Shown here: positions 10,723-63,600 of the stretch, in pieces
Position numbering within the stretch: position 1 is the stretch's first letter
How the letters are laid out: each line of letters starts with the position of its first letter
Source of the DNA: Cornus controversa
Taxonomy: Eukaryota > Streptophyta > Magnoliopsida > Cornales > Cornaceae
Length of the DNA: 64,000 nucleotides
Reading direction: 5' to 3'
Assembly: GCA_026545225.1 (NCBI GenBank)
Contig: CM048853.1
Coordinates: 54,331,755-54,395,754, forward strand
Notes under the pieces: generated by a model
Told to the model about the DNA's origin: nothing
Databases searched by the model: none
What the model saw: the letters and a program-made list of their open reading frames with translations, nothing else
Program-made: the position numbers and the translations under genes

Positions 10723-11430
10723 CGCAGCACCTAGTAAAGCCGTGTACACATTGCTGGTCATAAGCCTGTTTGGCGCTGCTTGAAAAGCCTTCTGTAAAGC
10801 AAAAAGTAGAAGAGAAACTTTATCGTCAAACATGGTGCCACCTCCCTCAAGCAAACCCAGAAGGTTGCTTGTCAAATCTAAAGGAGCATGTGAACCAATT
10901 TTCAGATGCCCAGATGTAACTAAAGCACCTAACATTCTAATGATCCCAACAACAGTACCATCGCCTTTGTCAACATTATAGACATTATTACGTGCATTGT
11001 CAGCACTTATAGAAAAGCTTATACCACCCAAATTTTTTATCAAAGGACTCTCAGAGAGAGACGCCATCCTTTCAATATCTGCGCTTCTGGAAAGAGCAAC
11101 AATGCTGCCGCTGCTATTGAAAGACTTGGGTTCAAAATCTTTTCCATAGGAAGTCAAGTCCTTTTCCTCAAAGGATCTTAAATCATCACCATGACTACTT
11201 CCTGAAACCCCACTACCATTGTCTAGTTCAGATCCCATTAATGAGACAGTTTCATCATTCTCAATTGAAAAGTCTGGGTTGTCATGGTCTCCAGCCTTTG
11301 CTTCACGCTGCAGCAGGACAAGAAGTGTTTCTATCCCACCACATGCTATAAATGCCTCTGCAAATGTGTGAGCTCTAGATGTATTCGGCTGCACCACCAA
11401 CCTGTAGATCAGGTGCAACACCCTGGCAAC
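10723..11430 (-). CDS. BEACH gene coding exon 3 (236 codons)
   Basis: Acceptor CTCTTCCAG|GTTGCC at 11430 and donor GGTGCTGCG|GTATGAT at 10723, both phase 0. Encodes [16 protein letters not shown], a Ser/Asp-rich disordered stretch, then an armadillo-like end ([16 protein letters not shown]). The following exon is not recognisable in the window. Confidence 0.87.
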
Positions 11431-14400: not shown

Positions 14401-17400
14401 TACAACTAGGAGTTCAATAACCACTAAGAGTTCATCAACCAAAGCATTTACCTCGCCAACAGGCCGTGTTGTTTCATTAAGAGAAAATGTATTCACTGAA
14501 TCATTTTCACAAATAGTCCAATAGCATCTCCTGCAGCCATCAAGAAGCATCTGAATAGCATTAGCATCTCGCATTACAGATGACTCTGTGAAAACCATAT
14601 CTGCAAGTGATGATAAAAGCTTCTTTTGGAGTCCATAGTTACATAAGCTCCAAATCTTCAGATCAAGCAGCAGTGTACTGAAAAGCTGAACTTTGAGAGC
14701 ATGGTTATTTTTCTGCGATTGGCATAAAGAAACAACTGCCGCAACAAGTTCTTCATCTCCTACTCCATCACGCTTACCAACGTCGAGCAAAGACAAAGTT
14801 TGCAGAAGATAATTTAAAATTCTTGACAAAATCTCAGGCCCTCTTATACGGCACAACTCTTCATTATTACTAGGGTGTTGAATGGCAATGGAGATAATTC
14901 TGAATATTGGAGCAGCAAGAGCAGTTGTGGCCAAAGACAAAGAAAAATTTCCTGGTTGTGGTTCCAAGCTATTTCCATGCACATTGCTTACTGCCAGTGG
15001 AAGTAAAGACAAGGGACCTCCATGCGCCAAGGCCCACAGAGCCTCTACGGGCCGCATTCTTGTGGCAACATGTACTTGCCCGAGAACCTCAGCCGGTCTC
15101 CGAAGCAATCCTGAATGCACAAAAATCTTATTAAGGATAGGAAACCCTTCGTCCAAATTCTTTTATGCCATGACGGAGTAACAATAACAAGATTTTCAGT
15201 TGCATGCAAGAGACAGGGCCGGCTCTGACTATAGGCGACCTAGGCGGTCGCCTAGGGCCTCCAAAGTCTAAGGGCCCAAAAAAAATATATATATATATAT
15301 ATATATATATTGTATGAGTTAAAAATAGAGAAAAAAATAGCCCAAATATATTGTATAAGTTAAACACAGAGAGAAAGGGGCCCAAAAAAAAAAATAGTAC
15401 TATATATATTGTATAAGTTAAAGACATAGAGAAAGGGGTCCAAAAAAAAAAATTTAGTTATATATTGTATAAGTTAAAAATAGTCGATATATATATATAT
15501 TTCTTTATTTGCCTCCTTCAATGAATCTATTGACTTTTCTCTTCTTTTTTTTTAATTTTTTTCTCTTTTTCTTTATTCCTCCCTCTCTTTAACATCTTTC
15601 AATTTTCTTCTCCAGCCAAACAATATTGAAGAAAATCATATTCAATATCTCGGCAGAATTATATTTAAAGTTAAAAGTCTTAAGAGGAGTGTTAAAAATT
15701 CGCACTTTATAAAAAAAATTACGCGTGTATAACCTTACATATAAACAAAAAAGCACCGATACGGATACGGGACACGAATACGACACGACATGGACACAGC
15801 GACACGGCAGATCCTAAAAAACTAGGATACGGATACGGCGGGGACACGTGACTAATAAATATATCTTTTTATATATATGAGATCAATCTAGAAAAATTCA
15901 CAAATCATAATAATTAATGAGTTATAACAACAATAAATTTATCGTTTAAAGGACGACACAATTGAATCTACTCCACAAAAATGATAATAGTTGTTTTCTA
16001 AACAAACAAAAAAAATTGAAATATTATATGTTATGACTGCCATATTTTATTAAAAAATTTCAAAGAAGTCATCATATTTACACTTTATACTATCTTTCTT
16101 TTTAAAACTTTCTGAAAACTCCCTAACGATATGACACGCGTGTCGGACACGTGTCTTTGGCGTGTCTATGCCGTGTCCGTGGTGTGTCCAAAAATAAAAA
16201 AATTAGGACACGTATTTTGGCGTGTCCGACATGTGTCGGGGTGTGTCCGACTTGTGTCGGTGTCCGATACGTGTCCGACACGGATTCTTTGACCTTTTAG
16301 GTGTGTCCGTGCTTCCTAGCATATAAAGGGCCTCACGTTGGAAGTTCGCCTAGGACCCCTCGAGATTTTGGTAATATCAGGACCGGCCCTGGCAAGAGAT
16401 ATTCAAGCTGGACTTCCAAGGCTTTAGTTCAGAAGTATACAGTCTTCATTGTAGGAAAACAATTGAAGCCCATTTAATTAGTTACCCCATAAACATATTT
16501 TAATCATTTGAAGCAGGCGAACATAAATTTAGTTGATATGGTTCGGAGTTTGATCAATAAAAAGGAGTAGAATGAGGAGGGAATAAGAAGAAAGAATGTT
16601 AAAAAAGGTAGATATTATTTTCTAACTCATCTCATTCTACTTTTACGAGTTCCAAGTAATCTTAGGCTTGAGAAGGTTTCTCAAGTGTATGCATCAAAAT
16701 GTACTTCAAAGTATCACAAGTTATGCAACAATGGGCTTGCTAAGGATATCATGCTCGGTGTAGATAAAAGTTAGTTGTGATTCTAGTTTAAGTTTTGCTA
16801 GAGAACATAAGAAAGATTTTGAAACCTGTAGCACCACATGGAGAAGCATCTGGACAGTAACGCCCATTAAGTAAACTAGGATGATACAGAAGGTGAATGC
16901 TTCCTCCAATTTCTGCATCCAAAAGTGCACTTTCCTCTGCCGTACTTTGAACATGCTCACTCATTGCTAGCCATGGTAGCCCTGCCCCATTACCAAAAGA
17001 AGGCAGCACATCTCCTCCTCTAGAAGCCAAACGAGTCATCCTCTCTGGCCCAATAGGTTCCTTAAAGATATATACAGGCCCCATCTCAGCAAACAAAGGG
17101 CATTGACGACGACGACGTTGTAAACCAGCCATTGTCGGCGGAGGATTAGTCCCAATGCAACAAAATGCAAGTGGCTTAGAAATCCGTGGGAAATCAAAAG
17201 GACGACTTTCATACAAGGATCCATCAACATACAACCTTAGCTCACTCTCTGTTTTCCCAAGTAGCCCCTGCTTGCAAGTATGCTCCAGACCAATAAAATA
17301 CCAACATTGAGGCTTGAATGCATGAGTAAAATGCAAGGATGCTTTCTTTCCTTTGCCACTACTGCTTTCAACTACCAAAAACTGAGCATGAAAATATGCC

Positions 17401-18863
17401 TCCATACCCTGATTATCAGCAGATAAGAAGCTGAACAGCCGCGGCATGTGTGCAGTGCCTTCACCAGCAAGTGCGCTGGCAGCAGCGGCAGCTGACATGG
17501 CCGATGATTTCCCTGATTTGGCTGCAGCGGCAGCAGCAATTGCAGCAGCAGCAGTTGCTGTATTTAGAGTGTCCGCAAATGATTCAATGTAGATCCAAGT
17601 TGCAAATGCATATCCATTAGTGAAAGGCCAACGGCTCTCTCCTGGACCAAGCAAACCGGAGCTTTCACCATCGAACTCAAATGTACAAGCTGGACCCCTT
17701 GACTCCTTTCCACCAATGGCCTTTTCCAAATCAAGCATTAAACGAGCTGCCCATACAGAGGTAAGTGTCCTCGTGATGACTTGAAACCATCTATGCAAAT
17801 CAATTACACTAAGTGTATGTCCGGCTAGGTACTGGATGCAGTAGCATAAAGGAGTTCCATCCCATCTCAATTGCTCTGTTGAAGTAACATCCTGAACAAA
17901 AATCTTCTCAGCTGATCTCAAAAGAACTCCCAACAAACCAGCCATGGAGCACATCGCTCTGTTTCTTGTGCAAGCACGCAATATAGCAAGCAATCCTCTA
18001 ACCATCCGAGTCCTAGGGGACATGAGGCCGTCGACATCTCCCGGCCACGGAAGCCAAGGAATCAGTTCGCCTGCTACAATGGCAGCCCTGGAGTTCAGCA
18101 TCACACTAGGAGGATTGTTATCCTCATCATCTTCAAAAGATTCAACACCTCCCATTGTGGCAAGAAGCGAATCAACTACCAAGAAAGCAATACTCTCAGC
18201 CTCTTCTCCATTTTCAAAACTCTTGACACCACTTACAATATTCTTCAGTTTGTCCAAGCTTTCGGGCTTCCCCATAATCGCAGAATCTACTAAATGCAAG
18301 AGCTCTGGAGACACATTTGGCAAAACAAGTTTTGGCCTAGGCCTTTGTGGCGAGCCAACATGAGCATATCCACTATCCCCGTATAAATGTGAGGCAGAAT
18401 CAAGACTAGCCGAAGAGGACTGTCGGATGTGATGAACCGATTGTCTCTCAGGCCCAGGGCTCGAACTATATTGATCATGGGGTACCTCTGCAACTGAGGA
18501 AGAATCGAACTCTGAATTAAATTTCCCAGATGAAAATTCATAGGCTTCTTCACTCCCACCAGAAGAGTGTCGCAATTTATCTGAATTTAAAGGTTTATTT
18601 AAATCTATATGACCATCCTGAAAATCCCCGACTTTATCTTTTAAAGAAACCTGCTCAAATTGGTCATCATTCAATGCTGTAGTTACAGTATCAGCACTTT
18701 GCAAAACTATGTTACTTACTATATCATCTGTTTCACCGCCATTAATATTGATATATTCTACATGAGATGTTCCTACCCTTCCATCTATGCCACTGCCTTC
18801 TTCGAGAATATCAGAACCCTTTACAGAAATGCCCCTAGGTTTCTGTGCTTCTTCTTCTTCCAT
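10723..18863 (-). CDS. BEACH domain-containing protein of the BCHC1/BCHC2 type, 5' three coding exons (3' part not in window)
   Basis: Large scaffold protein of the neurobeachin/LRBA/LYST class; plant members act in membrane trafficking and related processes (family knowledge). Coding joins 16826-18863, 14323-15110 and 10723-11430, giving 1178 codons in frame with GT-AG introns of 1715 and 2892 bp. Visible parts: an acidic, Ser-rich N-terminus (1-180), a conserved helical stretch (180-410) and a concanavalin-like/LamG region (about 410-605, including [20 protein letters not shown] and [12 protein letters not shown]). The LamG region contains a poly-Ala insert. An armadillo-like/DUF4704 region follows ([20 protein letters not shown] onward). 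The start at 18863 gives [11 protein letters not shown] and is preceded by a probable 5'UTR intron. The PH, BEACH and WD40 parts (roughly another 1800 residues in relatives) are absent from 1-10722. Either a very long intron follows, or the gene is truncated. The visible exons have no internal stop. The BCHC1/2 assignment is from remembered homologues. Confidence 0.85.
13149..13296 (+). mobile_element. tRNA-derived SINE (Au-like)
   Basis: Starts GGGCGACCCTTGGCGCAGCG. Contains an A-box-like segment, the stretch TTGCTCCATTGTGACCTGGA, and a degenerate B-box (AGATTCAAAAC where GGTTCRANNC is usual). Continues with CAGCCTCTCCGCATGC and ends near GGTTTGCCC. This matches the layout of the plant Au-type SINE as I remember it. 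The target-site duplication is not clear. Confidence 0.8.
13908..14222 (-). mobile_element. RTE-clade LINE 3' end
   Basis: The minus strand reads [24 protein letters not shown], the hallmark C-terminus of plant RTE LINEs (…[10 protein letters not shown]). It ends in a short GATGAT-type repeat (13908-13932). It carries stops and has the same family signature as 35100-35860. Confidence 0.75.
14323..15110 (-). CDS. BEACH gene coding exon 2 (262 codons plus 2 nt)
   Basis: Acceptor TGCATTCAG|GATTGC at 15110 and donor CCAATCAG|GTAATATT at 14323. Encodes [20 protein letters not shown] to [12 protein letters not shown], strongly conserved in BCHC proteins. The phase matches both neighbours. Confidence 0.88.
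15214..16391. mobile_element. hAT MITE with TIR CAGGGCCGG, containing a second hAT element
   Basis: Ends are CAGGGCCGGCTCTGA on the left and TCAGGACCGGCCCTG on the right, near-perfect inverted repeats. The 8-bp target duplication GCAAGAGA is identical at 15206-15213 and 16392-16399. Without the inner insertion and its duplicated site it would be about 596 bp. No coding capacity. It lies inside BEACH intron 1. Confidence 0.92.
15746..16319. mobile_element. Non-autonomous hAT element (574 bp) of the 'AAGCACSGAYACGG' family
   Basis: The right end GTGTGTCCGTGCTTCCTAG is the inverted counterpart of the left end, which is a decayed AAAAAAGCACCGATACGG. The 8-bp target duplication CATATAAA is identical at 15738-15745 and 16320-16327. 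Sub-terminal regions are packed with GACACG/CGTGTC repeats. It is inserted inside the outer hAT MITE. Same family as 39392-41321 and 45325-49050. Confidence 0.92.
16826..18863 (-). CDS. BEACH gene coding exon 1 (codons 1-679 plus 1 nt)
   Basis: Open from the ATG at 18863 (complement) to the donor CTACAG|GTTTC at 16826. The frame ends in phase 1 and joins GGA (Gly) with the next exon. Reading through past the donor adds [11 protein letters not shown] and a stop, which is intron. Confidence 0.88.
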
Positions 18864-19990
18864 AATATTGTTACTATTCGCTTAAACTAGTAAACCCTCA
18901 AGAAAATCATTTACAATCAACTTCACCTGCACATATTTAAACCATGAAAATCAAAGATTGGCAAGATCAATCCAAAAATACCGCCAGTCATATAGAACAA
19001 TGTACGAAAAATGAAATGCAATAAACGATGAACTTGAAAAAAACCATCAATCCAATGTAGTTTTAGCAAAAGAGTAATGATATTGAGACCGACTAAATAG
19101 GGCCAATTTCCTAAGTCGGATTAACCACAACCATTGAATGCATTCATGAAACGGTAGTGATTCAGTTAGTCTGGGAAGTCGGCTCTATTTAATTGCAAAA
19201 AATATATTTGTCTTAGGTCAAACACCACAATATACCAAATTACCAATCAATGCATTAATCACAAATCCAAGCCTAACAAACTGAATTAATGAACTAAAAC
19301 AAGTTTAAAGGATGAGAGAGCAGTCAATATATTTGGTCAGCTTATACTCTCCATTTTGTGCAAAGAAAGTCCACCAAATAACCATAACTGGTCCACCCCT
19401 GATCACCAAGAATATCAATTAGGCCGAACTCTCCGGTCCCCGTTAAACTTAACCTAACACGGCTACCTAAACTAACTGAAACAGCAGACTACGTGTTCAA
19501 TTTGTAATTCCATTCTTATTTTCTTTCCCTCAATTTTGTCTGCAATTTAACAAACAGATACATACAGCAATAAACTCGAAAAGCAAAAGGCAAAAAGAGT
19601 AGGAACCTGATTCGAACCAAATCGACTTTTGCTAGAAGTGACAGATCTAGCTTGGCCAATGTTCTTCCAATCAGTTACCAACTCAAAGATCAATCCCTTC
19701 CAAATGAATGATAAATCACTGCATCAAATAAGTGAAGTGATATATAAAGCATATAGTGAGAAAGAGGAGAGTAATCGCAGAAAAGAAGACGAAAGTTCTC
19801 AGTGGTTCCCTCTGGAATTGGATCAAATACCGTTTTTGAGTATGGTTTGGTGCGTTTGGTGTTGATTTTGATTTGCAGTGATTGATTTGGAGTGAATTGG
19901 AAGAGAAAACGAAATGATCAGACGGATACAGAATGACAGAATCGGAGGATGGGGGTGGTTTCGGAAGCCGGACGACTGGAGCAGTATGCG
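18864..19990 (-). promoter_or_regulatory. 5' leader and promoter side of the BEACH gene, with a probable 5'UTR intron
   Basis: On the minus strand a donor TCAG|GTTCCT (after 19607) and an acceptor TGTGCAG|GTGAAG (before 18926) would define a 680-bp 5'UTR intron (18927-19606). This leaves 63 nt of leader just before the ATG. The transcription start is not determined; it probably lies between 19607 and 19990. Confidence 0.5.
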
Positions 19991-37000: not shown

Positions 37001-39620
37001 GTTGTTGAACCTTGCAGTGTCTAATATTGGCTTGTTATGACGATGAATGTGTTGCAAAGTTCACCAAATCGTTTGTAGTGAATTCATTTAAGCTGGAGTA
37101 ACACAGCCAATATATATTTTTAAGCACGAATGGTGAAAGATGTTGTTGTGAAGCCTAAATGAATTGCTTTATGAAATGGTTTAAGAGATGTTCATTCCAT
37201 GAAGTTAAATTGATTTCGTTGGTAGTGAATATTTCATGTTAATGTCCTGTTTTTCTTTTTATGGCTCTCTCTTTCAGGTGAAATGGCTGAACAAGCAGTT
37301 GAGCAAACTGTGGCCATATATTGCTGATGTAAGCTCCTCTGCTCGTTTTTCTATGATCTACATAATAAGTAGTAGTATAAGATACATGATATTTATTAGC
37401 TTTAAGAAATGTTTATGGGATAGTGTGCAATGTGCCTTCTGGTCCTTCTGAAGATTGGCATTCTCCGATGGCACCTTACCCACCAATCTCAAAACACAAA
37501 TAACTAATAATTAAGGCAGAACGTATTTCCTGGTTATTAAACGCATTGGTTTAGAAATTCTCTTGGTTTTCTCAATTATTGCCTCTCACTCACTCCTAAG
37601 GCTGCCTCTGTTTTCACCCTACTCCCACCTCCTGAGCTTTCCACCATTCTGAACGGAATGCCTCCATTATGGTAGTAGAGCCCAAATGACCAACACATTG
37701 CCGTAGTAAATGTGAACAGTTACTACTATAGTTTATTAGTAATTGCTGTAATTTACTATAAAACATTTGTTCCTGTATGAGCCAAGAAGCAATTTCATGA
37801 TCAAAGAATTTATAGCAATAGAAACAATAAAGTTGAAGGCAAAAGAGATTATAGATTTAGGATCTTATATAATGCTATGGTTTCTGGTACTTCTCAATAG
37901 AAATTGGTTGTGATAACCAGTTTATATGTCATACATATGCTTTAAAACTATGTAATTACAAAATAAATATTAGTGATATACCTTTAAAACTATGTTGGTA
38001 TCTTAAAATAGTGACTGATTTAAGGCATTATGCAATTTCAAAATTGTGATTATAAAGGGACCGGCTGTATAAAGTGGTTTGGGTTTTGTTATATGTTATG
38101 TGTTTATTTGCATTTGGCAAACAATAGCTGCTTGGGAATTTAGTTTTAGGTGGTAGTATGTTTCCAAAGTAATTTCAGGGTACAATTTTCACATATGGCT
38201 GGAAACCTCCTAGAAACTTTGTGGAAATGCTTTTGAACAAATGTGGTGCCTCAGAAATATTTGAAGTAGACCTAAGATGTCCTCTCTCTCTCTCTAACTC
38301 GTGTGTGTGTACCCATGTTTGAGTGCTTCTTTCTTATTGGAATTCAGTTCCTTCAAGTGTCTTCTCTGTAGCCTGTAGGTGACTTTTTCTGTATCAGTGT
38401 TTTGCTTTGTCATAGCTTCAGAATTAGTATATTCAGAATTATTTACTTGCTTTATTTTTCTTATTTATTATGTGGGATCACTTCTTGCTTTTTTTTTTCC
38501 TATGATGCTTGCCTAACATTTTATTATGGTAATGATGTGGCAAATAACATCTCTGAGCATTATTCTTTATTGTTTTTCTTTTTTTATTGGAAATGGATAT
38601 ATTTTGAACTTTTCATGAAAGATGGCATTTGACTTTGCCTTCTATATGATGTACTTTGGTTGTTGCTTTTATTTTCTAAATCGAATTTATCCACCAAGGG
38701 GAGTGCTGCGTTGTTGAAGGGAGAGGAATAGAGAAAAGAGGAAATAACATGACCATTAACAATATGCCATGCATTAGAATTAATTTCATTGCAAATGTAT
38801 TGTAAGTACCATTATTTTTGCATGTGTATATGCATGTATGTAGAAGGTTTAAAAATAAAGAGATAATTTGATGAATAAATTCTTGCATAGAGGAACTTTT
38901 TGACATCATCTAATATCTGATTAGATCATAAGATCTATTAGCACATCATTGCTACAATCTATTTCATTTTTATTTTGGGTTTTCAGCAGTCCTCTCATTC
39001 TTATTTCAATAGTTCAAATCTAACTTATCCCACCCCTCACTCCAGAAAGAAATCATAAGAATGTTTGTTGTCTTCATTTTCAGGCAGCCACGGCAATAAT
39101 AAAAGAATCTGTTGAACCTTTGTTGGAAGAGTATCGGCCTCCAGGGATTACTTCCTTGAAGTTCAGCAAACTGACTCTTGGAACCGTGGCACCCAAAATT
39201 GAAGGTATGTATTAACAGGCAGTCCTTTTAGAACTCATCAATATTTTGCTCAACCTATCATATACCTGGTTTCTTGTATTCTTACATACATCATGGAATG
39301 GCCTGCAAACTCTACCATTTTTCATACAAGTTAAATTTAGTTACCGGCATTTGAGATTTATTTAGTAAATGATGTATGGCAAAAATTCCTGCTAGAAAGC
39401 ACCGACACGGTAGTGGAATGCAACGTGCTAGTGTCGGACACGTGTCCGACACGGACACGCCTATCCAAGGCTCGGACACGTGTCTGACACTCAATAGAAG
39501 TGTCCTATTTTTTTAATTTTTTTTTTATGGATCAGATACCGCAAAGGATATGTCGGGACATGTAGTAGGACACGACACAACGATGGATTTTTTTATAAAA
39601 AAAAAATAGAGAGAAGAAGA

Positions 39621-39680
<60 letters not shown>

Positions 39681-42600
39681 TCATTCTCTATATGTAATAC
39701 ATAAAATCCTAAGATTCAACATACAAACTATAAACTAATACATTATAGCTATATATACATAGCATAGGCTTTGACGTCGTTGGCCTTGACTAGATCTGAT
39801 GATCAAGTCGATTTAGACAACCCAAGGGTGGGCACATGGTGACTGTCACGACCACTTGATCTGCGAGGTCTTGGTGAGAAACAAGATGGGGAAGAGCCGG
39901 AGAGGAAGGACTTTAGGAATGTGGAGATGGAGAGGATGAGAGAGAATCAGTAATGCCGGAAGAGAGAGAGAGTGACATGTGACTGAAAGACGGAAAAAAT
40001 AAAGATTATAAAGTTGGAATAGAGAAAGACGTATCAATTTAATAGAGAAGATAAGATTACAACTTATTTCCTTCACACCTTGTTTGGTCATAAACATAAC
40101 TTGTGACTTTTGGATTTAAAAATAATTATCTGTTTATATGTTTTTATAAAGAAATATGAGATGCATGTGGGTCTAGTTAATTTAAATGGGTTATGTTAAT
40201 AAGGAATTGCGAAAAATTAATTATATATATATATAATAATAATAAATTATTTGGTAAATATCACTGACACCTCCTGAGGTTTGATGTATTGACACACGGC
40301 TACAACTTTGTGAATTTTCGTCACCAAAACCTCCTGTTAGCTTTTTTATTTTTTTAATGTGTGAAATGTCTTGATTGCCCTGATTATTTAAATGTATTTT
40401 AATACAAAAATATCAGAATAGAAAAATGACCACAATATCCTTCATGATAATATGCATTGACAACTAATTTTTATTTTATGTTAATATTATTATTTATGAA
40501 AATAAATAATTATATATATTATAGTGTATATATAGATGAATATTATTATTTATGAAAATAAATAATTATATATATTAGGTTATATATATTATAGTGTAAT
40601 ATAGATGAATAGAGAAAAAGAAAGAGAAATTTGATTACTTTTTTATTTTATGTTAACATTATTATTTATGAAAATAAATAATTATATATATAGGTTATAT
40701 ATATATATATATTATAGTATTTTGTGTATATATAGATAGATAGAGAAAAAGAAATAAATTTAATTACTTTTTTATTTTATGTTAACATTATTATTATGGA
40801 AATAAATAATTATATATATAGGTTTTATATATATATATATTATAGTATTTTGTGTATAGATAGATAGATAGAGAAAAAGAAATAAATTTAATTACTTTTT
40901 TATTTTATGTTAACATTATTATTATGGAAATAAATAATTATATATATATATATATTATAGTGTGTATATATATATAGGTATATTCAAAGGGGTATTTTGG
41001 TCCATTAGACAGGGCTAAATAGATAAATTTAGTTTTCAAATGGGTTAGGTCAAAAGTCAAAGGGCGACATGGTCATTCACCGTCAAAAAGTGCTTTGACA
41101 TGGTGTACTTTTGGCAGGAGGAGGTGTTGGTGATGAAAATTCACAAAGTTGTAGCCGCATGTCAATACATCAAACCTCAAGCGGTGTCAGTGATATTTAC
41201 CCTAAATTATATTATAGTTTTATTGCCGTATCCTTGCTCTGTCCTATTTTTTAAAAATTTGTTATATAGCCGTGTCCGTGTCGTGTCGTGTCATACCCAT
41301 GTCCGTGTCCGTGCTTCATAGAGTTCCTGTAAGTAGTATCTTCCATCACTGAGTTAGGCTTTCGACACCACCAGTAGGCCCTCCTGCAAGTATTTTGATG
41401 GTTCTTTGTCAATCTGACTTGAGAAAGATGTATTGCATTCCTCTAATTTCTTAAACGACATTAATGTAAAGATTGTAACCTAATGGAGTATCAAGATTCT
41501 TGGGTTTGGATATGTCACTTTTGCCTTCTCAAATTGGGTGTGACTTGTTTGGGGTTTTGTGGATTGGCTCGAACCAAGAGTCCAACAAACCTTGAATTGG
41601 GCCCACTTCTAATGGGATCACATCAAACCAACCATAGTTGTTGAAGGCTTAAGGCGCACTAAGGCGCTAAGGCTTCCTGGAGCCTGAGGCGCGAGACGCA
41701 GGCCTGACTGAAGCGAGTTAAAAAAACTTTAGAAAATCTAATTGTTGACCTCAAAAATCAAGATCAATGGTCTTTAGATACATTGACTTAGACTTTGAAC
41801 TCATTTGACTCACTTTATAAAGTTTTATCATGCATTCATTGTTTCAAGAACTTGGCTCAGAAATTTGGCCAAGTGTTAGATTCTAGGGGCAAAATTGTAA
41901 ATATGAATTTTTTTTAATGAATTATGAAATCAAAATTCCGAGTAATTGTACCCCATGATTTATCAGGATCATATGAATGTTCTCAACTCTAAATGACTTG
42001 ATTTGATCATTCAAATTCAAATTGCAAGATGATTTTTTAACTAAGCTGAAAAATTTCATTTTGTACTAAAACTGAAAATCAGATTTTGATTCACTTGGAA
42101 TTTGATTTTGAAACTATTTTTATTGAATTCAAATGGGGGTACTTTCCTTATTTACATTGAATAACTTAAAGTAAATCGAGATTTAACTTAAAGTAAATCG
42201 AGATTTACTTATATGTTTTCAATGTAAATAAGTAAGCAATGAGCAATAGCATTATGTGCACCACTGAAATTTCAACAAGTGTTAAAATTAGCTAAAAAAG
42301 AAAGGTTTCAATCAGGTGCGCCTAGCCAATAGCCGCGTGCCTAATTGAAGGCACCTCGCCTGAGGCTATCTCTGCACTTGTGCCTTGTTGCGCCTCGCGC
42401 CCCAAGCAAATTACATATATATCAATGTCAACTCAAGATTTAAGAAAAACATTAGGCAAGAATAATTAAGAATTAGAGCCAAAATGTTTTACATCATGAC
42501 TCTATTGACACTTTCTTATATTTCCACTAGGGGAGTTCCTCCATGCTTTTGTATATTTCTTGTTGTCAAGAATATAGGCTAAGTTGAGGGAGAAATCTTA

Positions 42601-45600
42601 GAGAGGGAGGAGAGAAATAGACAGTTTTATTGTGTATTCAAAGAGTGGCTACAATCTGAATTTATAATGATCTACAGAACAAAAATAAGGAAAACAACAA
42701 TATATGAAAAACAATGTATATGGAAAGCAGTGATTCTGCCCCTAATTAAGGAATAATTGATATAACCCTAATTAAGGAATAGTTGACTGACGATAATTGT
42801 ATTCTATTCATGACACTCTCCCTCAAGCTGGAGAGTAGATGTCAACAACTCCCAGCTTGCTGCAGATAGAATCAAAGACATGCTTTAGAAGTGCCTTAGT
42901 AAAGATATGTGCTAACTAATTACCAGATGATACAAACGAAGTCACAATTTCTTTGGAAGTCACCTTAGAACGAATGAAATGACAATCAACTTCAATATGC
43001 TTTTGTGATTATTCCAGAAGAAATGAAACAAAAGATACGGTAGAGCTAGGATAGTTATTGTATGAGGTCTACCCAATGCTAGATGCAGAGGCGCATAATA
43101 GATCGATATGAACATCATGAGTTGTCCCGTATTCGCTCGTGAAAACTGGATTATTGACAATGTAAATAGCTGCTTGGTTATCACAATAGAGAATAGATGG
43201 GTCTTGAACTGAAAACCCAAATTCTTGTAATAGAGTTCTCAACTAAGTTAGCTCACAGGAAGTATGTGTCATGGCATGGTACTCAGCTTCAGCACTGGAC
43301 CATGCCACAACTGACTTCTTCTTACTTTTCAAAGTTACTAGATTGTCTCTTATATCATTACTGTCTGTCTGAGGGAGAACTTGCTCAATCAGCATTAGTA
43401 TAACTTTCGATGCGCAAATGTCCAGACGACTGACAGAAAAGACCATGACTTGGAGCCCGCTTAAGATACTTCAAAATTTGTATAACCGCGTCCATGTGAG
43501 GAATTCGTGGGCTAATTATAAATTGGCTCACAACACTGACTGCATAGGCAATATTTGGACTAGCAATGGTTAGGTAAATTATCTTACCTACAAGACATCG
43601 GTACATCTCTGGATCATCAACCAAATCACCAACCTCAGGCAGTAGCTTCAGATTAGTCTCCATGGGGGTTGTTGCAGGTTTAGAACCAAGATAACCCGTA
43701 TCTCTTAAGAGATCAAGAGTATATTTTCTCTGAGATAAACTAATTCCTTTATTTGATTTAGCAACCTCTCAATACCAAGAAAATAACGGAGCTTGCCCAA
43801 ATCTTTAGTGAGAAAATTCAAACCCAAATGATGAATCAAGGTCTGAATTCCCTCCCAGTCACTCCCAATAATGACGATGTCATCCACATAGACCACCAAA
43901 ATTATAATGCCACACTGTCTTTTAAAGAAAATTGAATGATCGGCTTGACTTCTAGTCATGCCATGAGCAACACCGCCTGTTAAACTTATCTAACCATGGA
44001 CAAGGTGACTGTTTGAGTCCATAAATAGATTTCTTGAGATGACAAACACACTCCCCTTGGACTCAAATCTAGAAGGCTGAGCCGAGCCATGTACACTGTC
44101 TCGGTAAGATTAATGTGAAGAAAAGCATTTTGGACATTGAGTTGATGAAGAGGCCAGTCAAGATTGGCAGCAAGAGAGATAATTATGCGAACAAGGTTGA
44201 GCTTAGAATGACCTAGAACCCTAGGTGTCATGCCCCGAAATCCGGATTGCCGGGATGCCCCCGGATTGACCCGAATTCCGAGTGTGAACCCGTTCACTCA
44301 ACCCCGTGAACGACATTAACCACACTCATACGATAGTATCAAGCTCTGATACCACTCTGTCACGCCCCGATTCCCAGATCCCTAGAACCGAGGTGTGAAC
44401 CCGTGAGATTACCCTCACGATATAACCATCACCTGATCATACAATCTCAATTTCCTATCATTTTCAAGAAAATTAGGCATCACTCATTTGAATAAATCAG
44501 ATCCTGATGTGTCATTCATACTTTAAACCTAATTTGGACACTTTTGGACACGTGTCCCCCCATCATTCACATCTAGAAGTTAAAATGGACATTTTTGGGC
44601 ACGTGTCCCCCCATCCTACACATTTTAAATTAAAAATGGACACTTTTGGGCATTTGTCCCCCCATCTTTCACATCTAATACATTTCTATAACATGAATAA
44701 TACAATTGAAATATAACTCAGTCTCTGAATGTCCGTCTCATAAACATACATCAAATGGAATGTACAAGTTACACATATAATAATGTAACTACAGCCTCAA
44801 AGCAATGTCACATGCCACAAGCCGGCATGGATAGCTACCATAATATGGTGTAAGCTTAATCTTTAAAATTCAATTAGATGACCTCGGGCTCCTTTTGAGT
44901 CCCAAAACTTCCACAAGTGACTATGAAGTCCATTTTTCATCCAATCTTGGCGCACAACTTGAAAAATGTTGGGGGGAGCGGGGTGAGCACCATGGTGGCT
45001 CAGTAGAGATACCCCAACCCACCTAAGCGCCAACTCGACGCCAACTTACATGAATGCAAGTCATGGCATCCCTATCGGCTACATGGCATATGATAGAGCA
45101 TTTAAATATACATAGCATAATCATTAAATGCACGTAAGCAATATCTATCATATAGACAATCCCAAGCAATGCATGCTTCACCTCACAACTTAAATCATGC
45201 ACATAACTATTTTGTCAACCACTATGTATACAACATATTCATGTACAATGCTTACACTTCATGGATAATTATAGATAACCACAAGCATTATCAAGTCAAG
45301 CATTTTGCATACATTCTTCAAAACCTAGGAAGCACGGACACACCAAAATGGGTGAAGAATTCGTGTTGGACACGCCAAAAAACGTGTCTGGAATTTTTTT
45401 TTTTTTTTGAATTTTCGGACACGACATGGACACGCTAAGGATATGCGTCCGACACGGCATGAGTGCGTGTCCGACACGCGTGTCTCATTCTTGGGGCATT
45501 TTTACAAAAAATTTTAAAAAAAACTGGGTTCAAGTGTAAATATAAAGAGTTTTTTTAATAACTTCTACTTCCTATTTTCTTTCTTCTTCTTCTTCTTCTT

Positions 45601-48600
45601 CTTCACAAACCCTAATTTTTTTTCTCTTTTTCTTTAACCTCTTGTTTCCATAAATCATTTTTTTTTTCCATGGATTCTTACTTTATGTTTCACTAAGCCC
45701 TAATTCTTTTCCAAACAAAACTCTAATTTCTTTGTTTTTTTCTTCTTCTTTCTCTTGCTATACACTGTCAGTCTGTCAACTGTTATCTTCTGCTGGTTTT
45801 TGTGTATGGATTCTTACTTTATGTTTCACTAAGCCCTAATTCTTTTCCAAACAAAACCCTAATTTCTTTGTTTTTTTCCTCTTCTTTCTCTTGCTATACA
45901 TTGTCAGTGTGTCAACTGCTATCTTCTGCTGGTTTTTGTGTTTGGATTGGTGGTACTTTGTACTTGTTATTTTTTTGCATGCAAACCTGCTACTCGTTGT
46001 GTTTAGACAAATATGTGTTTTATTAATGGCAATTCAACATGCAAAGCTGTTGAAATTTTTTGTTTCCTTTGATATTAATTTATACCAAACCTGTAGTAAC
46101 CTGTAAACAAATAGGAAAATACTTTGTTGTTTCTTCTTTATTCTTGATTTTTTAACATACAAATAGGATTATGAATTTTTGTTCTTTTCATTTTATGTTA
46201 TAGGGAATTAGATTTTTCAATATGATTTCTTCAGCTGCTAGTAGTACTCCTCCTCCCGAACAAGATGAGACCAAACCACTTTGGAACTATGTCACAAAGT
46301 TAGAGAAAATTGGTGAAGGAGGAGGAAATTTTTTGTTCTAATGCAACTTTTGTCACAAGACTTGGAAGGGATCTTATACAAGAGTTAAGGCCCACTTGTT
46401 GAAGACCTCTGGTTGTGGTATTCAAGTATGCCAAAAAGCCACATCTAATGATATTGCAGATATGCAAAAAGTATTAGAAGAAGCCGAATTGAGAATGAAG
46501 AACTCTAAACCAAAAAGAGTTCCTTTGCCCCCTTCTAGTGCACATTGGGTAATTTGGGTGGTACAACTAGTTTCATTCAAGAGGGTTATGCTCTAAAGAA
46601 AAGAAAGGTAGGTGGGAGTGGAACTAGTAGTGGAAGCGGGAGTGCCATTGAGAAGGCATTTAATCTTGGGGCTTGGGAACAGTTGCACTCAGAGATTGCT
46701 AGGATGTTTTATTCTGCAGGCTTGCCATTTCATTTAGCAAGAAATCTATATTATGTGAGTTCATACAACTTTGCTGCAAGCAATCATATTTCAGGTTATT
46801 TGCCTCCGGGTTATAATCTGTTGAGGACCACTCTGCTTCAAAAAGAAAAGACAAATGTTGATAGATTATTGCAACCAATTAGGGGCACATGGAAGGCAAA
46901 GGGTGTTAGCATTATAAGTGATGGTTGGAGTGATTCGCAAAAAAGGCCACTAATTAATTTTATGGCCATGACAGAAGGGGGCCCTATGTTTTTGAAAGCT
47001 ATTGATTGTTCTGGTGAAGTTAAAGACAAGTTTTTTATTGCCAACTTGTTGAGGGAAGTCATCCACGAGGTTGGGCCCGAAAATGTGGTCCAAGTGATTA
47101 CGGACAATGCCCCAAATTGTAAAGGAGCGGGGCAACTAATTGAAGGACAATTCCCTCACATTGTTTGGACACCTTGTGTGGTCCATACCCTCAATCTTGC
47201 GCTAAAAAATATTTGTGCCGCAAAAAATGTGGAAAGGAATGAAATAGTATATGAAAAGTGTGGTTGGATTGTTGATGTTGCTGGGGACGTTACAAACTTA
47301 CAATGATAAAGAATTTCATCATGAACCATTCAATGAGATTAGCTATTTTCAATGAGTTTGTTTGCTTGAAGTTGCTTTCGGTTGCGGAGACACGCTTTGC
47401 TTCGATTATTGTAATGCTCAAGAGATTTAAACTTATAAAGGGTGGTCTCCAAGCAATGGTAATAACTGATAAGTGGTCTTGTTATAAAGAGGATGATGTA
47501 GGAAAGGCCAAGTTTGTGAGAGATAAAGTGTTGAATGATGATTTGTGGAAACACATTGATAGTATCCTTTCCTTTACTTCACCTATTTATAACATGCTAA
47601 GGGCTTGCGATACCGATAAGCCTTGTCTTCACTTAGTTTATGATATGTGGGATACAATGATTGAAAAAGTGAAGATGACAATATATAGGAATGAAAAGAA
47701 GCGGCTAAGTGAAAGTTCTTCCTTTTATGATGTGGTGTATGGGATACTTGTAGATCGTTGGAACAAGAACAATACTCCGCTTCATTGTTTGGCACATTCA
47801 CTAAATCCAAGGTGAATCATTAGATCTTAATTCTTAAGCTAGTAAATTTTTAATCTTAATTTAGACTTGGGAAATTAAATTATGAAGTTAATGCATTCTC
47901 TAAATTATTGTAGGTACTATAGTGATGCATGGCTTAGTGAGGACCCAAGTCGAATTCCACCACATAAGGATTTGGAGATCTCACGAGAGAGAACAAGGTG
48001 CCTAAAGAAATATTTTAGTAACCCACGAGAGCGTTCAAAAATCCAAGTGGAGTATGCTAATTTCTCATCAAACTCGGGGGAATTCGGGGAGAGTGATTCT
48101 ATTTGTGATAGATATACCATGGATCCGAAGAGTTGGTGGGTTGTACATGGTTCATATGCTCCCATGCTTCAAGAGTTAGCTTTGAAGTTGCTTGTCCAAC
48201 CTTCTTCCTCGTCATGTTGTGAGAGGAATTGGAGCACTTATTCTTTTATTCACTCATTGAGAAGGAACAAGATGGCACCACAACGGGCTGAAGATTTGGT
48301 TTTCATCCATAGTAATCTTCGTCCTCTATCAAGGAGAACCCAACAGTACAATCAAGGACAAACTAAGATGTCGGACATTGCAGGAGATGCATTTGATTCA
48401 TTCGGGGATGTTGGGGTGCTTGAGGTTGCAAACCTTTCACTTGATGAGCCGGATTTAGAGGCAGTAATATTTACTGATGATGGAAGTGTTGGTGATGAAG
48501 ATGATGAGACAAATGAAGTTGGGGTCAAATGCTGAATAGGAAAAGATGAATACTGATCTGTTTTTGTTTTTTGTAAATGAAGTTGGGTCAAATATAGGAA

Positions 48601-51600
48601 AAGATGAATACTGATCTGTTTTTGTTTTTTGCAAATGAAGTTCGGTCAAATGATGAATGAATAGAATATAGATGAAAACTGACCTGTCTTTGTTTTTTGT
48701 TTTGGACTAGCATTTTGGTTTTTGTGAATGCTTAGTCTTGAATGTAAATAATTAAAATGATGGTTGATGATGCATGTTAGAAATGTATGGTAGTGGTTTA
48801 CATGTGACATTGTTCTCTACTTTATGACTTATGATTTGTGATTTTTTTTTTGTTAGGTTGATGAAAAATAATTTTACCAAAATTAAGAGTACAACATAAT
48901 ATATATATATATATATATAAAAATAAAAATATATATTTATTATTTGCTGTGTCCTCGCCGTATCCGTGTCCTAATTTTTTAGGATTTGCCGTGTCGCCGA
49001 GTCCGTGTCGTGTCGTATTCGTGTCCCGTATCCTTGTCCGTGCTTCTTAGTTCAAAACCATACATTTTAACATGAATTCACATACTTTAAATAAACATAA
49101 ACTCATGCTTACAGATAGCATCATCTCAAGAATATCATACATGTTCACATGTCTCATATTATCACATAGAGCACACATACATATCAAATTTAGCATGCAA
49201 TTATCACAAGAGCAACTAGGAATTTAAAGCCCAAATCCCAAATCTACTATGCAAGCTAACCCACCAAGGAAACCACATAATTCCTATAGAATTGACGTTA
49301 GGGAGGAAGGAATACCCCTACCTCAAATCTCTGTAGAAGTCCCAGCACCACCACACCTCAAACTGTGAACAAATCATTTCAACTTCATCATCATTGAAAC
49401 CGACATTACCTAAGGCCACCCACAAACTCAGCCGTGAAAACCCAGCCTTCACCAACCAACTGCCCAACTTTCACCTTCACTAAGCTCCACCATTGGAGCT
49501 GCCATCACCATTAACACCAATCTCCATGGCAGCCGTGACTAACCGTGAAAATCCAGTCACAAACCAGCCAAAATTAGTCTGCAATGGCCACCCACTTTAG
49601 CACAACTATCATCATAGCTACCATACTCAACCACTACTTCAATTAAACCAGCTGAGCACCACCAACCATGGCTGGAACAACCTTCACCCAAGGCCACAAA
49701 ATTGAACACCATCAGCCGAAGACCCGATAACGAGGCCACCGTTAAACACCTAACCGTGAGCATCACCACCACCACGGCCAGCCCGCCATGGTCACACCAA
49801 GACCACGCAAACAGGCCATTCCCGGCCACCACCGTAGAACCCATGTGCGATCCTCACCACCAACCAATTCAGTCCAAAACGACCACCCATGGAGCCTCCA
49901 TGATCAGACCACCAACCAACTAGCTCACAGCCCAATCGTGCGCCGAGTCCACTAAAAAGTCCCAAAAATTGGACCCAAATCAACTCACCTCAACAGACCC
50001 AGCGACCCAAACCAGTCAGCCCCACCGTGACCCCCACTTGCCACCGAACCCAAACCAGCTTCATCGCCGGCACCATCCGAAACCCAATTGTGGAAACCCA
50101 TCCCCTGATCGTCGACCACCATGGCCAAACAGACCCTTGACACGTCCTGTAGGAACCATGCCTGCAACGACGCAGCCATTTTCTCCCTCAAGCTACTGCC
50201 GAGAGCCATAACAGCCGCTAGTAGCCACCGTCCACCGTCTCCCAGCCGAAGCTCCACCGTGAGCACCACCAGCCTAAGCTTCTTCCTCTCTCTATTCTCA
50301 GTTCTCTTTCTCTCTCTAGTCGTCTCGGCTTTCTCTCTCTTTCCCTCTCCACATTCTCTCTCTAACTTTCCCTTCTCTCCTCTTTTTCTCTTTTCTTCTT
50401 TTTCTTCTTTCTCTTTCTTTTCTTCTTTTCTCTTCAGCCGATTCCCTCCCTTCTTTTCTTTTTATCTTCATTTGCTTTGGTCCACACGTTTTTGTGTCCC
50501 CTCTACTCCACAAGATTTATATATATCATATATAAATATATACATATTACACCACATGGGTTATAACCCATTCCCAGCCATATGCAAACATATATATTAT
50601 ACATATATAACATCATATAAAACATATACCCATATGTTTATTTATATACATACAATACTATACACAATTACATGTATTTATTATATACATGCACCCCCAT
50701 ATATTGATAATTAAATGTAAATATATCCCCTATATATATATATAACCACATCCTCCATCTATATATGAAATCCCACATATATGAACATCCACTTCCTATA
50801 TATATATAATTCCATTTATATATATATATCCACATATTTTTCGAAATTAATAATTCGAAAAAAGAAAACCCGAACAAAGATCATCCGGAACCGGTTTAAA
50901 TAATCTGGGTTGTTACTCTAGGTCTCCAAAAAAAAAGAAAAAAAGAAAAAAGAAAGTTGTTCTCTGTAATTCTGGCAGAGATGACTTAAAAAAAAAACAG
51001 AAAATATTAGGTTCTTTCTCTATTTCATGTTCAATATTCTATAATTCTCTCTCTTGTACTTGGATTGTCTTGTCTTGACTATCATGGGTGACAAATCGAA
51101 AAACAAGGATTCTCTCTTTTTCGGCTCGATAACTACTACCAAATTAAAGGGTTCCAATTACCTTCAATGGTCTTGGGCAGTCCAAGTTTTTCATGAAATC
51201 TTGTGGAAAACTTTCTTACATCTTTTCACCCAAACCCAAGGAGGATAAAACAAATTAATGCACGGTAACAGGAGGATGCACATATTATGACTTGGCTATG
51301 GAATAGTATGGAACAAGAGGTGTTTAATAATGTTTCGTTTCTAGAGTCTACTAAGGAGATTTGGGACACACTCAAAGAAATGTACTCTTCAGAAAAGTAT
51401 ATTTCTCGCATTTACCAGTTGTACTAGGATATCTTTTCTCTTCAATAAGGTGACCGATCGATTGAAGAATACTACTCGGAATTGAAAGGCATCTGGGAAG
51501 AATTTAATGTTTATTAGCCTTTGACTACGGATTTAGAGACTCATAAACAACACAGAGAAGAATTTCGGGTAGCAAAATTTTTATAAAGACTTTGGCTAGA

Positions 51601-54600
51601 ACTTGCTCCCATCAGTTCTCAGATTCTCTCAGGCAAAGATTTGCTAACTGCTAGTGAGACTTTTGCCCTTATTCGACGTGCCTCTATCCACTCTTCTACT
51701 ATAGAGATTCAGAGGAGGAGGATCGTTTTGCCTTCGTTGCTCTAGCTGAGTGATTAGATACTTCACGTGGTGGTCGAGGGGGACATGGTCGTCCTCATAC
51801 TAGCAAAGGTGGTCGTTGGTGGAAGAGGTGGTCGTGGTGGTAGAGGTGGTTGTGGTTGCAGGACTTGTACACACTGTGGCCGCACCAATCACTCTGTTGA
51901 TTACTGTTGGGAACTTCACGACAAGCCTGCATGGGCAAATCAGGCTATGGTTAAGGGGAAAAATCCTAATCTTGCTGCTGAAGAATAGGTTCTTATATCC
52001 AAAGCTGAGTATGATTCAATTGTCAAGCGTGCCAATCCTCCATCCACTTTCACAGCTACTTTTGGTGATTCATGTAATACTTGTTTTCATTCTTCCTTCA
52101 GTACACCTTGGATTATTGATTTCGGGGCCTCAGATCATATGACAGGTAACTCTTCTCTTTTGTCTGACATTACTCGTGTATCTTCTCCCTCATTTGTTAC
52201 AATAGCTAATGGTATCAAGTCTCCAGTCCAAGGAATTGGTACCGTTAGTACATCTAGTCCAACCTTCTCTTCCATTTTATATCTACCTCAATTTCCTTTT
52301 AACTTGTTATCAGTTCGTAAGATTACTTCTGCTCTAAATTGTTCGGTAACATTATATCCTACTCACTGTATCTTTCAGGATCTAAGGATGAAGAGGATGA
52401 TTGGTGAGGGATTTGAGAAGGATGGGCTCTGCAACTTTCAATTGTTTTGTTCACCTATTGCATCTGCACTCCATACCTCGACTTCTCCGTATCAGTGGCA
52501 CTGTCGTCTTGGACATCATTCATCTGACAATCTTCAGTGTTTAGTTCCTTTTTTACCAAAATTTTCTAGTTTTAATTGTGAAACGTGTGAACGTACTAAG
52601 CATCATAGGGCTACTTTTAAGTATAGAACTGATGAGCTTTGTTTATGCCCTTTTGAGCTTGTTCACTCTGATGCTTGGGGTCTAGCCCGAACTATTGGAT
52701 TAGCTGGTGCTCGATATTTTATTTCCTTTATTGATGATTATTCTCGTTTGACTTGGTTATATATTCTTAAAGATCGATCTCAAGTCTTTCATGTGTTTAA
52801 ATCTTTTTATGCTGAGATAACTAATCAGTTGAATGCTAAGTTACACATTCTTCGAATTGATAATGCCCTTGAATATAAGGATGGTCTCTTTTAGCAATTT
52901 CTTGAGTCTAGAGGTGTCACCCATCAAACTTCCTGTGTTGATATTTCCCAACAAAATGGAATTGCTGAAAGAAAGAATGGACCAATTCTTGCTATTGCCC
53001 GGGCTTTGATAATTCAAATGAATGTGCCTAAGCATTTTTGGGGAGACGCAGTTCTTACTGCGGCATATCTTTTAAATGTAATGTCATCTTGGGTCCTTAA
53101 AGGAAAATCACCTTTTTAGATAATGTTTCATAATAAAAATTTATTTTCTCTTCCTCCAAAAGTGTTTGGGTGCATTTGTTTTATTTATAATTTAAATCCA
53201 AGACGAGACAAACTTGACCCTTAAGCTCACAAATGTATATTTTTGGGCTATTCTCGCACTCAGAAAGGATATAGGTGTTACAGTCCATCTTTGAGAAAAT
53301 ATTTTGTGTGTGCTGATGTGACATTGTTTGAGCATATTCCATATTATTCTAAGGAGGGTAGTCAAGTGGAGGAACTTATTTTTCCAGACATTGTTCTCCC
53401 ATCTCCGGTTCTTGATACTACTCTCGCTCCTAGGGTTTATACTCGACATGCTCGCAAGAATACTGCTTCTGCTTCTACCACTGCCAGGACGAATCTCTTA
53501 TGCCACCTGCTCCAGCGATTGAACATGTAGAGCCTTCCTTGCATCCTCCATCATCTTCCTCAGCGCTTATAGATCCAGTTGTTCATCCTTCCGAGTCTGA
53601 TCTTCCCATTGCACTTTGCAAAGATAGAAGGGTTTGTACTAATCATCCGATATCTCATTTTGTTTCTTATGACCATTTGTCTTCTTTTCGAGCTTTCTCT
53701 TTATCATTGTTATTGTTATGTGTTACTGTTCTAAGTCATATAAGGAAGCTCTTTTCCATCCTGGCTGGTGGAAAGCTATGGAAGAGAAAATGCATGCCTT
53801 ACAATTGAATCATATTTGGGATCTTCTTCCAAAGCCAGCAGTTGCTCTGATACCATGTCAAGAATATAGGCTAAGTTGAGAGAGAAATCTTAGAGAGAGA
53901 GGAGAGAAATAAATTATTTTATTATGTATTCAAAGAGTGACTACAATCTGAATTTATAATGATCTAAAGAACAAAAATAAAGAAAACAACAATATATGAA
54001 AATGGAAAGCACTGATTTTGCCCCTAATTAAGGAATAATTGATATAACCCTAATAAAGGAATAGTTGACTGACGATAGTTGTATTCTATTCATGACACTT
54101 GTTATTGATCATTTTGTGCTTATTCTTCAGTTTTTTGTGTGCTCCTAATTATATAATTGATCAGGTATCCGTGTTCAGAGCCTTAACAAAGGTCAGATCA
54201 CTATGGATATTGACTTCCGATGGGGTGGTGATCCAAACATCGTTTTAGGTGTTGAAGCTGCACTTGTTGCTTCAATACCCATTCAGGTTGGTCAATTAAT
54301 TCTTTAGTTTTTATTTGAGTTGTTTTCCTTTACATTTTAGATTCAATGCTATTTTACTTATCATCATTTGCTACTCAAATCGTATTATATAGGACAATAT
54401 TACTTTTTATAATGTCATTACACTATTGGTTGTAGTTCAAGGACCTTCAGGTTTTCACTGTTGTTCGTGTTATCTTCCAACTTTGTGAAGAGATTCCTTG
54501 CATATCTGCTGTTGTTGTTGCTCTGCTTTCTGAGGTATGTCTTAAGCATATTTTTTGTAGTGCTTGCAATTTAGTGGGTGACGATGTTCAGTTATTTTCA

Positions 54601-60600: not shown

Positions 60601-63600
60601 GCTGCATGCATGATGCACTCAATCACGCCCATTCATGATAACTCCCATGATGCACTAAGTTAATGAATTAAAGCAATATTTACTGGTTTTGGTGTATACA
60701 ACTCGAAGATGGTGCCAGCATGGTTCGCTGAATCACTCCCATGTAGAGAGAAACAAAAGGGTGTTGCGAAGTGGAGGGAGAGGGGTTCAATTGCTTTTAA
60801 TTACATTTTTGTACGATTAATGATTTTATATACTGAACAAACCAAATGATTTAAGGTGGGTAGTTGTAGATGTAGGTTTTTCAGAAGCCATATGGACAAA
60901 TGTGACACGTCACTTTAACCTCAATACCATATCTCCTCAGTATCAAAGATTCTTTTCAAGAATGACTATACGAGGCAATCTCACAAACTGATATGTATCA
61001 ACCTCTTTAATATGGGCTCAATTGCCATAAAGGCATAGTTCTTCCTTCTTTTCCAAAAAGAACCTAGACCATTTATAATAGTACACTGAAGTGCACTTGC
61101 CTGTGTCAGACGGTACTTAAATTATGATATGACTTCAGTATCAAGTTGTAATTCTTGTGGTCTTTGTGTGAGAGAGTTGCAAGTTGTGACCCTAGTGATC
61201 ACGATGTAGTCCATGTACTACATTGTGATTGTTTCAGTTTCCAAATTATGCTACCCTCTTTGTACCACCAAGCATCAACTTGAGTGGTTTCTCCTCCACC
61301 TTCCAACGGAGAAGTCAGTAATTCTGGTCCCAAATGGGTAAAGGTGGGTTCATGAATGTGATTGCATCAAGAAGTTGAGTGTCCTAAGGAAGACCACAGC
61401 CAATGAGTATATGTCGCCTTCTGAGACATAGGAAGTTAGAAACAGGAGGCTTGGTAAGATCTCCTTTGAACTGAGAACCACATTTAGATTTATTTGGTCA
61501 ACAATCTGCTACAAGAAAGCTGGCAGATTCCAGGTTCCATTCTCAGATGTTTGATTCATCACATGAACGTTAAGTACAACTTTTTTCTTTTTTAATGTAT
61601 CTTTTTTTTTTAATTTCTTTTTGCCTATCATGCAGCGAATTAGAGCTTAAACCACAGGGCAAGCTTACAGTAACGGTAGTGAAGGCAAATGATCTGAAGA
61701 ACAAAGAAATGATTGGGAAATCTGATCCTTATGTGGTTGTGTACATCCGACCATTATTCAAGGTCAAAACAAAGGTTGTTGAGAACAACCTGAATCCTGT
61801 TTGGGATCAAACATTTGAGTTGATTGCAGAAGACAAGGAGACACAGTCGCTTCTTATAGAGGTTTTCTTCTGCTATACCCTTTCTCTTTTGCTTGGACAC
61901 TCTCTATTTTCTGTATTGCCAATTCTGAGTATGGTGCTTCACTGTAGACTGTCAAGTAAAATAGCCTTAGTGTCTTGATCTTGGGTGTTATTTATTTGTC
62001 TACTTTTTATGTAGTTGATATTGTGTTAAATTTAAGTAGTACAGACTAATATTGTAAAAATTTAATTAAACCTACTAGGAATCGCACTTCAGAGAGAGCA
62101 ATTTATAAATGATGGTTTTTGTACATACTGAGATTCAAGAACATACACTTGATAATGCTTCCTTGGCTAGGAAGGCCCCTGAGAACTTTATAGCTGTGAA
62201 CTGAGGGGAGCTGGAGGAGGGTGGGAGCAATCACACAGGTTGGAATTATGGGCTGGGTTAAGTAGTGAAAATTTAGCCCTGAAAAATATGAGCTGTGATC
62301 AGAGTTCTGATGTTATGGAAAGTACTTTTGTGGTTTGGAGCCAGGACTTGGATCTTTTTTGCAATGACTTTGACTCTTCCTTCCAATATTTTCATACCTT
62401 GTAAATCCTTGCAATCTCATGGTTTGAAGTTCTGATTACATAATTTTTCTGTCTCTCAATCTCTCTCTCTATTTTTTCTTCACTTGTTGAAATATTTACG
62501 GATTCTGGATTCTCTGTACATTAAAGGCCGTTATCCATAGTTCCACCAATGGGTTTTGGAATGGATCAACTTGGTATAGTCCTAAACTTTAGCATTATTT
62601 GCATGGAGTGGGCTGTCCTCATGGTCAAACCATATTGTTGGGCTTAAAGCCTGAGCTTTTGCAATGACAAAGAGTGACCTGCATTTTCATAAATTCTGTA
62701 CGGAATTAAGGATAATCTTCTTGGGGAGCTAAAACAGTTGTCTATCACCATGTTAGGCTTGTGTTGTTAAAATTGTTTGATTCTTCAAAACTTGTGATCA
62801 GGGCTTGCATTTTTTTCTCTTTTTCCTTCTCCCTCTTTTTTGTTTTTGTTTTTTTTTTGTTTTTTGTTTTGTGGTTTAGGCTAGGATATGTTAGCATTTT
62901 CTGAATTGCTGAGTCACAGATAAATATGTGGACCATGTCTTACTAGTTTCAAAAAAGCTGCTCATGTTGTTAACTGAAATTGTCATTTGATCCTTAAAAC
63001 TGCCAAAATTTTCTAATTGTTTTTACCCTGTTACGCTCATGTTCGTGGATCCTTCAAACAGGTTTTTGACAAAGACATTGGAGAAGACAAGCGACTGGGA
63101 ATGGTGAAATTACCTTTGAATGAGCTGGAACCTGAAACGCCAAAAGAGGTTGAACTGAGACTGCTACCATCATTTGACATGCTTAAAATAAAAGATAAGA
63201 AGGATAGAGGAACTATTACAATTAAGGTGCAGTATACTCCATCTTTGATGAACCGTTGTTCTTTCCTGTATCTTATTTACTTGACGACATAGGGTCTCCT
63301 TAATATCTTCTATTACATGTTTCATTTGATAGTGTGCATCTTAAGAAAGCATGCACTGCTTGTTGCTTAACTAGGAAAGTGGAATTTCAGATACTCTATC
63401 ATCAATTTAACAAGGAAGAACAACTGGCCGCTCTGGAGGAAGAGAAGAGGATCCTAGAACAGAGAAAGAAACTGAAAGAGGCAGGAGTTATAGGGAGCAC
63501 GATGGATGCTCTCGATGGAGCTGCATCCCTGGTTGGTTCTGGGGTGGGGTTGGTGGGTACTGGCATCGGTGCTGGAGCTGGGCTGGTGGGAAGTGGCATT

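Follow-up and report, generated by a model that had tools for sequence, protein, structure and literature searches.

Internal inversions have been reported as a class of defect in integrated HIV-1 proviruses (passages cited from PMC8473067), and so have a likeness to the LTR element described here. In plants, retrotransposons found partial, deleted or chimeric in centromere 10 of maize have been explained by the repair of double-strand breaks, in many cases with microhomology (passages cited from PMC4806543), and in the Triticeae complex LTR insertions ascribed to template switching are flanked by a target site duplication (TSD) and have abnormal interiors (passages cited from PMC1950507). A literature search covering titles and the opening parts of abstracts found no internally inverted plant LTR element among the papers listed; subscription papers lay mostly outside its scope, so that examples may exist in print. 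Here we analyse a window of 64,000 nucleotides from Cornus controversa (contig CM048853.1, positions 54331755-54395754) that contains such an element.

It was found that positions 42564-54097 of the window form one Ty1-copia insertion on the minus strand, in which an internal block is reversed between the element's own LTRs. The 3' LTR (42564..42815, 252 bp, minus strand) matches other copies and is a direct repeat of the 5' LTR (53856..54097, 242 bp, minus strand), and identical copies of the TSD CTTGT can be read at 42559..42563 on the left and 54098..54102 on the right. A primer-binding site (53844..53855, minus strand), which we take to be of the initiator Met tRNA type, adjoins the right LTR, and a region that by its motif is presumably the polypurine tract (42816..42835, minus strand) adjoins the left LTR. 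By reading, this is the layout of a minus-strand element. The TSD and the positions of both priming sites are thus as stated in the initial annotation, which had also given a net size of about 4.8 kb; without a hAT-like transposon that it carries, the element is 4845 bp long. The LTR pair with its 5-bp TSD, an RVT_2-type reverse transcriptase (RT) together with a gag-pre-integrase domain, and the primer-binding site and polypurine tract beside the LTRs are all those of a Ty1-copia element, but the order gag-protease-integrase-RT-RNase H is not kept on a single strand, the block being on the plus strand and the rest on the minus strand.

The two LTRs differ at 14 of 242 aligned sites, with a further 10 gap columns, which corresponds to a K2P divergence of 0.061. 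Divergence was also determined for eight LTR pairs of sibling copies, with ends placed by hand from BLAST matches, and lay between 0.055 and 0.076 in six of them; the two outliers, L044 (0.026, with 54 gap columns) and L036 (0.194, one LTR being a partial match), come from poor or partial alignments. As the value for the window copy resembles that of the six siblings, this copy is not young. At a rate of 1.3e-8 substitutions per site per year, which is not specific to Cornus controversa, its insertion would date very roughly to 2.3 million years ago. The window copy is old, broken and dead, and appears to represent a one-off rearrangement within a common family and no novel type of element.

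On the minus strand, in normal orientation, lie RNase H and the C-terminal part of RT (43132..44206), as previously proposed. RNase H was assigned by eye, and the RVT_2 pieces were run through Pfam separately: 43705-43989 scored 40.7 bits against a cut-off of 31.6 and 43986-44297 scored 31.5 bits, marginally below it, while the minus-strand piece 43385-43768 returned no Pfam family. The inverted material on the plus strand (50915..53847) comprises 5'UTR, gag, protease, integrase and the N-terminus of RT, as judged from Pfam and sibling alignment. Pol_BBD and gag_pre-integrase matches fall within 51989-52894 and a retroviral SH3 domain within 53225-53530, both on the plus strand. The assignment of gag, protease and the integrase core comes from inspection by eye and from sibling alignment, and not from a family match. 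The initial annotation had placed the gag-to-RT block on the correct strand; its limits, however, needed to be revised, because the block reaches 53847, includes part of the 5'UTR, and has its other end at 44205-44207 and not near 51084. Without the hAT-like insert the inverted block is 2954 bp long.

For comparison we used 16 sibling loci from elsewhere in this genome, picked from the similarity matches of the window copy. Fourteen of these carry the gag-to-RT block, L029 and L042 being without it, and several are themselves deleted or bear insertions. L029 (G000:C3:76634000-76636500) is about 0.8 kb long, with both LTRs and little interior, and could be a TRIM-like miniature or an internally deleted copy. 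In all 14 block-bearing siblings the block is collinear with RT and RNase H, and when the window was used as query the matches to the sibling block were on the strand opposite to those of the LTRs and RNase H, again in 14/14. The siblings are therefore collinear in the element's own sense and it is the window copy that is inverted, in keeping with the single, internally inverted insertion originally put forward. Apart from losses, the two blocks of the window jointly cover the sibling element once. DNA identity to the siblings is about 80-93% in the longer pieces, and identities between the block and individual siblings are too even to discriminate an origin from another family member.

Comparison with the siblings placed both ends of the inversion exactly. 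At the first junction (J1, 53843..53847) RT passes into the primer-binding site, a feature present in most of the siblings displayed and missing in L031. Most siblings read GGTGCTCATG on the RT side and GATGCTCTGATACC on the primer-binding-site side, and the window reads GTTGCTCTGATACC; the overlap is therefore the 5 bp TGCTC. All 12 siblings that were checked have the RT-side motif, and only L043 departs from TGCTC, which the other 11 keep unchanged. Two of them, L038 and L044, have GATGCTC on the RT side, like the primer-binding-site side of most siblings displayed, and the overlap in the parent element could therefore have been longer. At the second junction (J2, 44205..44206), where RT meets 5'UTR, siblings have GAGCTTAGCC in RT and GCAGAATGACC in the 5'UTR and the window has GAGCTTAGAATGACC, leaving 2 bp (AG) in common. 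J2 is followed by a 19 bp remnant of inverted 5'UTR (44207..44225, plus strand), which matches the sibling 5'UTR in the element's sense. By arithmetic, with equal base use, a random join would have an overlap of at least 5 bp with a probability of 0.0046 and of at least 2 bp with a probability of 0.16. Both edges of the block fall within internal copia sequence. The initial prediction of one breakpoint immediately inward of the 5' LTR, which is where the primer-binding site lies, and of another in RT is thus borne out by the siblings.

Sequence was lost at both places. Relative to 11 of the 12 siblings that span the RT break, 128-138 bp of RT are missing (138 bp in eight cases; figures were slightly adjusted where alignments end a base or two early), which agrees with the approximately 45 RT residues first reported as absent; against L039, which is itself deleted at the RT break, the loss is about 16 bp. 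In the 5'UTR, 103-153 bp are missing relative to eight of the nine measurable siblings (11 were taken), and 21 bp relative to L041, itself deleted in the 5'UTR. A search for other copies with the same breakpoints, as had been suggested, was made across the 772 Mb genome (61 contigs): at up to three mismatches the J1 pattern matched only the window, the J2 pattern likewise matched only the window, and the reversed-pattern control gave no match in either case. With 601 bases across J1 as query, the window gave the only spanning match among the best 40 of 653 candidates. An inversion-sharing subfamily was thus looked for at this stringency and none was found; since siblings differ by about 10%, a diverged copy sharing a junction could escape pattern searches of this kind. 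Apparently, then, the inversion is private to the window copy.

The two coding blocks are separated by a hAT-like DNA transposon of about 6.7 kb (44226..50914, plus strand, its right end uncertain by about 3 bp), which lies in the inverted 5'UTR, 19 bp from J2. It encodes a DUF659 domain (E 1e-49) and the hAT dimerisation domain Dimer_Tnp_hAT (PF05699, E 1.8e-12). The left edge is common to many copies, with 32 of 46 other match rows starting at 44225-44228 and 23 exactly at 44226. Against the 8-bp TSD expected of a hAT element, the flanks ACCCTAGG and ACTCTAGG agree at 7 of 8 positions, a figure to be read with the uncertainty of the right end and hence of the TSD length. At that end six of seven rows from other copies read TTACA, among them L056 and L057, which also match the flank beyond, and the window reads TTACTCTAGG; the exact end of the transposon and its TSD are therefore uncertain. 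5'UTR sequence is present on both sides of the insert, within what by eye is a short inverted repeat (GACCTAG-AACC-CTAGGTC). Inside the transposon there is a tandem pair of 136 bp units that are 94% identical (45661-45932). A further insert of about 129 bp is found in the RNase H region (43003..43131), where all 16 sibling alignments skip from 43002 to 43132-43142, and is thus absent from 16/16 siblings. It has 12 matches in the genome including the window, of which three others are near full length, at 93, 91 and 81%. We considered whether this could be the missing piece of RT and rejected the idea, as there is no resemblance by eye.

An exon-like reading on the plus strand (54165-54283) starts about 60 bp downstream of the element's end, and matches a second plus-strand reading at 39075-39206 that is followed by a GTATGT donor-like site. 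Pfam gave no SMP match for these two short exons; a C2 domain was found within 61574-61978. We take the flanking exons to belong to a synaptotagmin-like SMP/C2 gene, and the element probably lies antisense in an intron of this gene, with the 3' splice site some 60 bp away. Elsewhere in the window there are long, exon-like open frames on the minus strand at 16788-18881 and 10717-11580, which we assume to resemble exons of a large BEACH-type protein.

The likeliest account of this structure, and one that we consider probable, is that two breaks were made in the integrated element and that the middle was flipped during microhomology end joining. A normal Ty1-copia element would have inserted once, probably antisense in the intron, and would later have suffered double-strand breaks at two places, in RT and in the 5'UTR beside the primer-binding site. 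Each break would have cost some 100-150 bp, and end joining via the 5 bp and 2 bp microhomologies would have religated the intervening segment in reverse. The hAT-like transposon would have inserted in the 5'UTR portion, whether earlier or later than the flip, and the 129 bp insert would have entered RNase H. In favour of breaks and end joining are the collinearity of 14/14 siblings, the exact junctions with short overlap and the loss on both sides; each junction pattern matches the window alone at up to three mismatches, which is what an event confined to a single copy would give, and the copy is not young and bears two further insertions. No special steps are needed if two breaks, loss of sequence and rejoining at microhomologies produced the structure. 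However, nothing places the inversion after integration, as an inverted cDNA that was dead on arrival would be equally private. Microhomology is predicted by break repair and by template switching, so that an overlap of at least 5 bp fits either route, and J1 coincides with the primer-binding site, which has a special role in reverse transcription. That position would be explained if the minus strand had left the RNA in RT, copied minus-strand cDNA from 5'UTR to RT and returned at the primer-binding site, the rearranged cDNA then integrating with a normal TSD. Such a double template switch, the main rival and one of the routes proposed initially, would leave the same structure and also agrees with the intact outer LTRs and TSD, and 'internal inversions' do appear as a defect class in HIV proviral classification (in the passages cited from PMC8473067). 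We nevertheless regard it as possible but doubtful: it requires switching twice to a strand with the opposite polarity, and at up to three mismatches no other copy with its junctions was found, although a dead copy need not have any.

Self-integration, also proposed initially, leaves LTRs inverted or produces deletions, and connects one end of an LTR to a site in the interior. It fits poorly and was rejected, as the LTRs are direct and terminal and there is no LTR end at J1 or J2. The hAT-like transposon might itself have caused the inversion, through breakage or aberrant transposition at either end, and its distance of only 19 bp from J2 is close for a block of 2.95 kb. This seems unlikely given that 5'UTR on both sides and a short flanking duplication are as in an ordinary insertion, and that at J1 RT is followed directly by the primer-binding site, transposon sequence being absent. 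Very improbable is a mimic of the inversion by two separate insertions or by misassembly. On the evidence of the assembled sequence, the window contains no N, both junctions are in a single 57 Mb contig, and the blocks cover the sibling element once apart from losses. A second LTR or TSD around 51000-53840, which had been named as a test, would point to an independent insertion, but a self-repeat search found no second LTR pair and both block edges lie in internal copia sequence; with the blocks also complementary, two nested copia insertions were rejected. What the sequence shows is a single TSD-flanked insertion, its inversion, both junctions with the loss at each, and no second match to either junction in this assembly at up to three mismatches; we infer that the flip followed integration and came about by end joining.

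The closest relatives of the window copy are its collinear Ty1-copia siblings (for example L030, L035 and L036), which can be aligned with it in the LTRs and primer-binding site, in the 5'UTR, and in gag, integrase, RT and RNase H; they differ in having the block from 5'UTR to RT in normal orientation and in being without the 129 bp insert. The inversions of maize centromere 10 are chromosomal, near the centromere and not within one element (in the passages cited from PMC4806543). Unlike the window copy, the complex insertions of the Triticeae contain an internal LTR and two complete cores (in the passages cited from PMC1950507), and by word counts 'inversion' and 'inverted' are absent from the text on these insertions. 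The window copy provides a case in which the internal inversion of a plant LTR retrotransposon with a flanking TSD is resolved to the base, and cautions that a gag block and an RT block annotated on opposite strands may belong to a single insertion. Surveying junctions of this type could separate clustering at landmarks of reverse transcription, such as the primer-binding site or polypurine tract, from random placement. The HIV-1 proviruses are a different element, and the passages cited from PMC8473067 give no mechanism for their inversions; if template switching did produce the window copy, it would be the equivalent in plants of retroviral proviruses with internal inversions.
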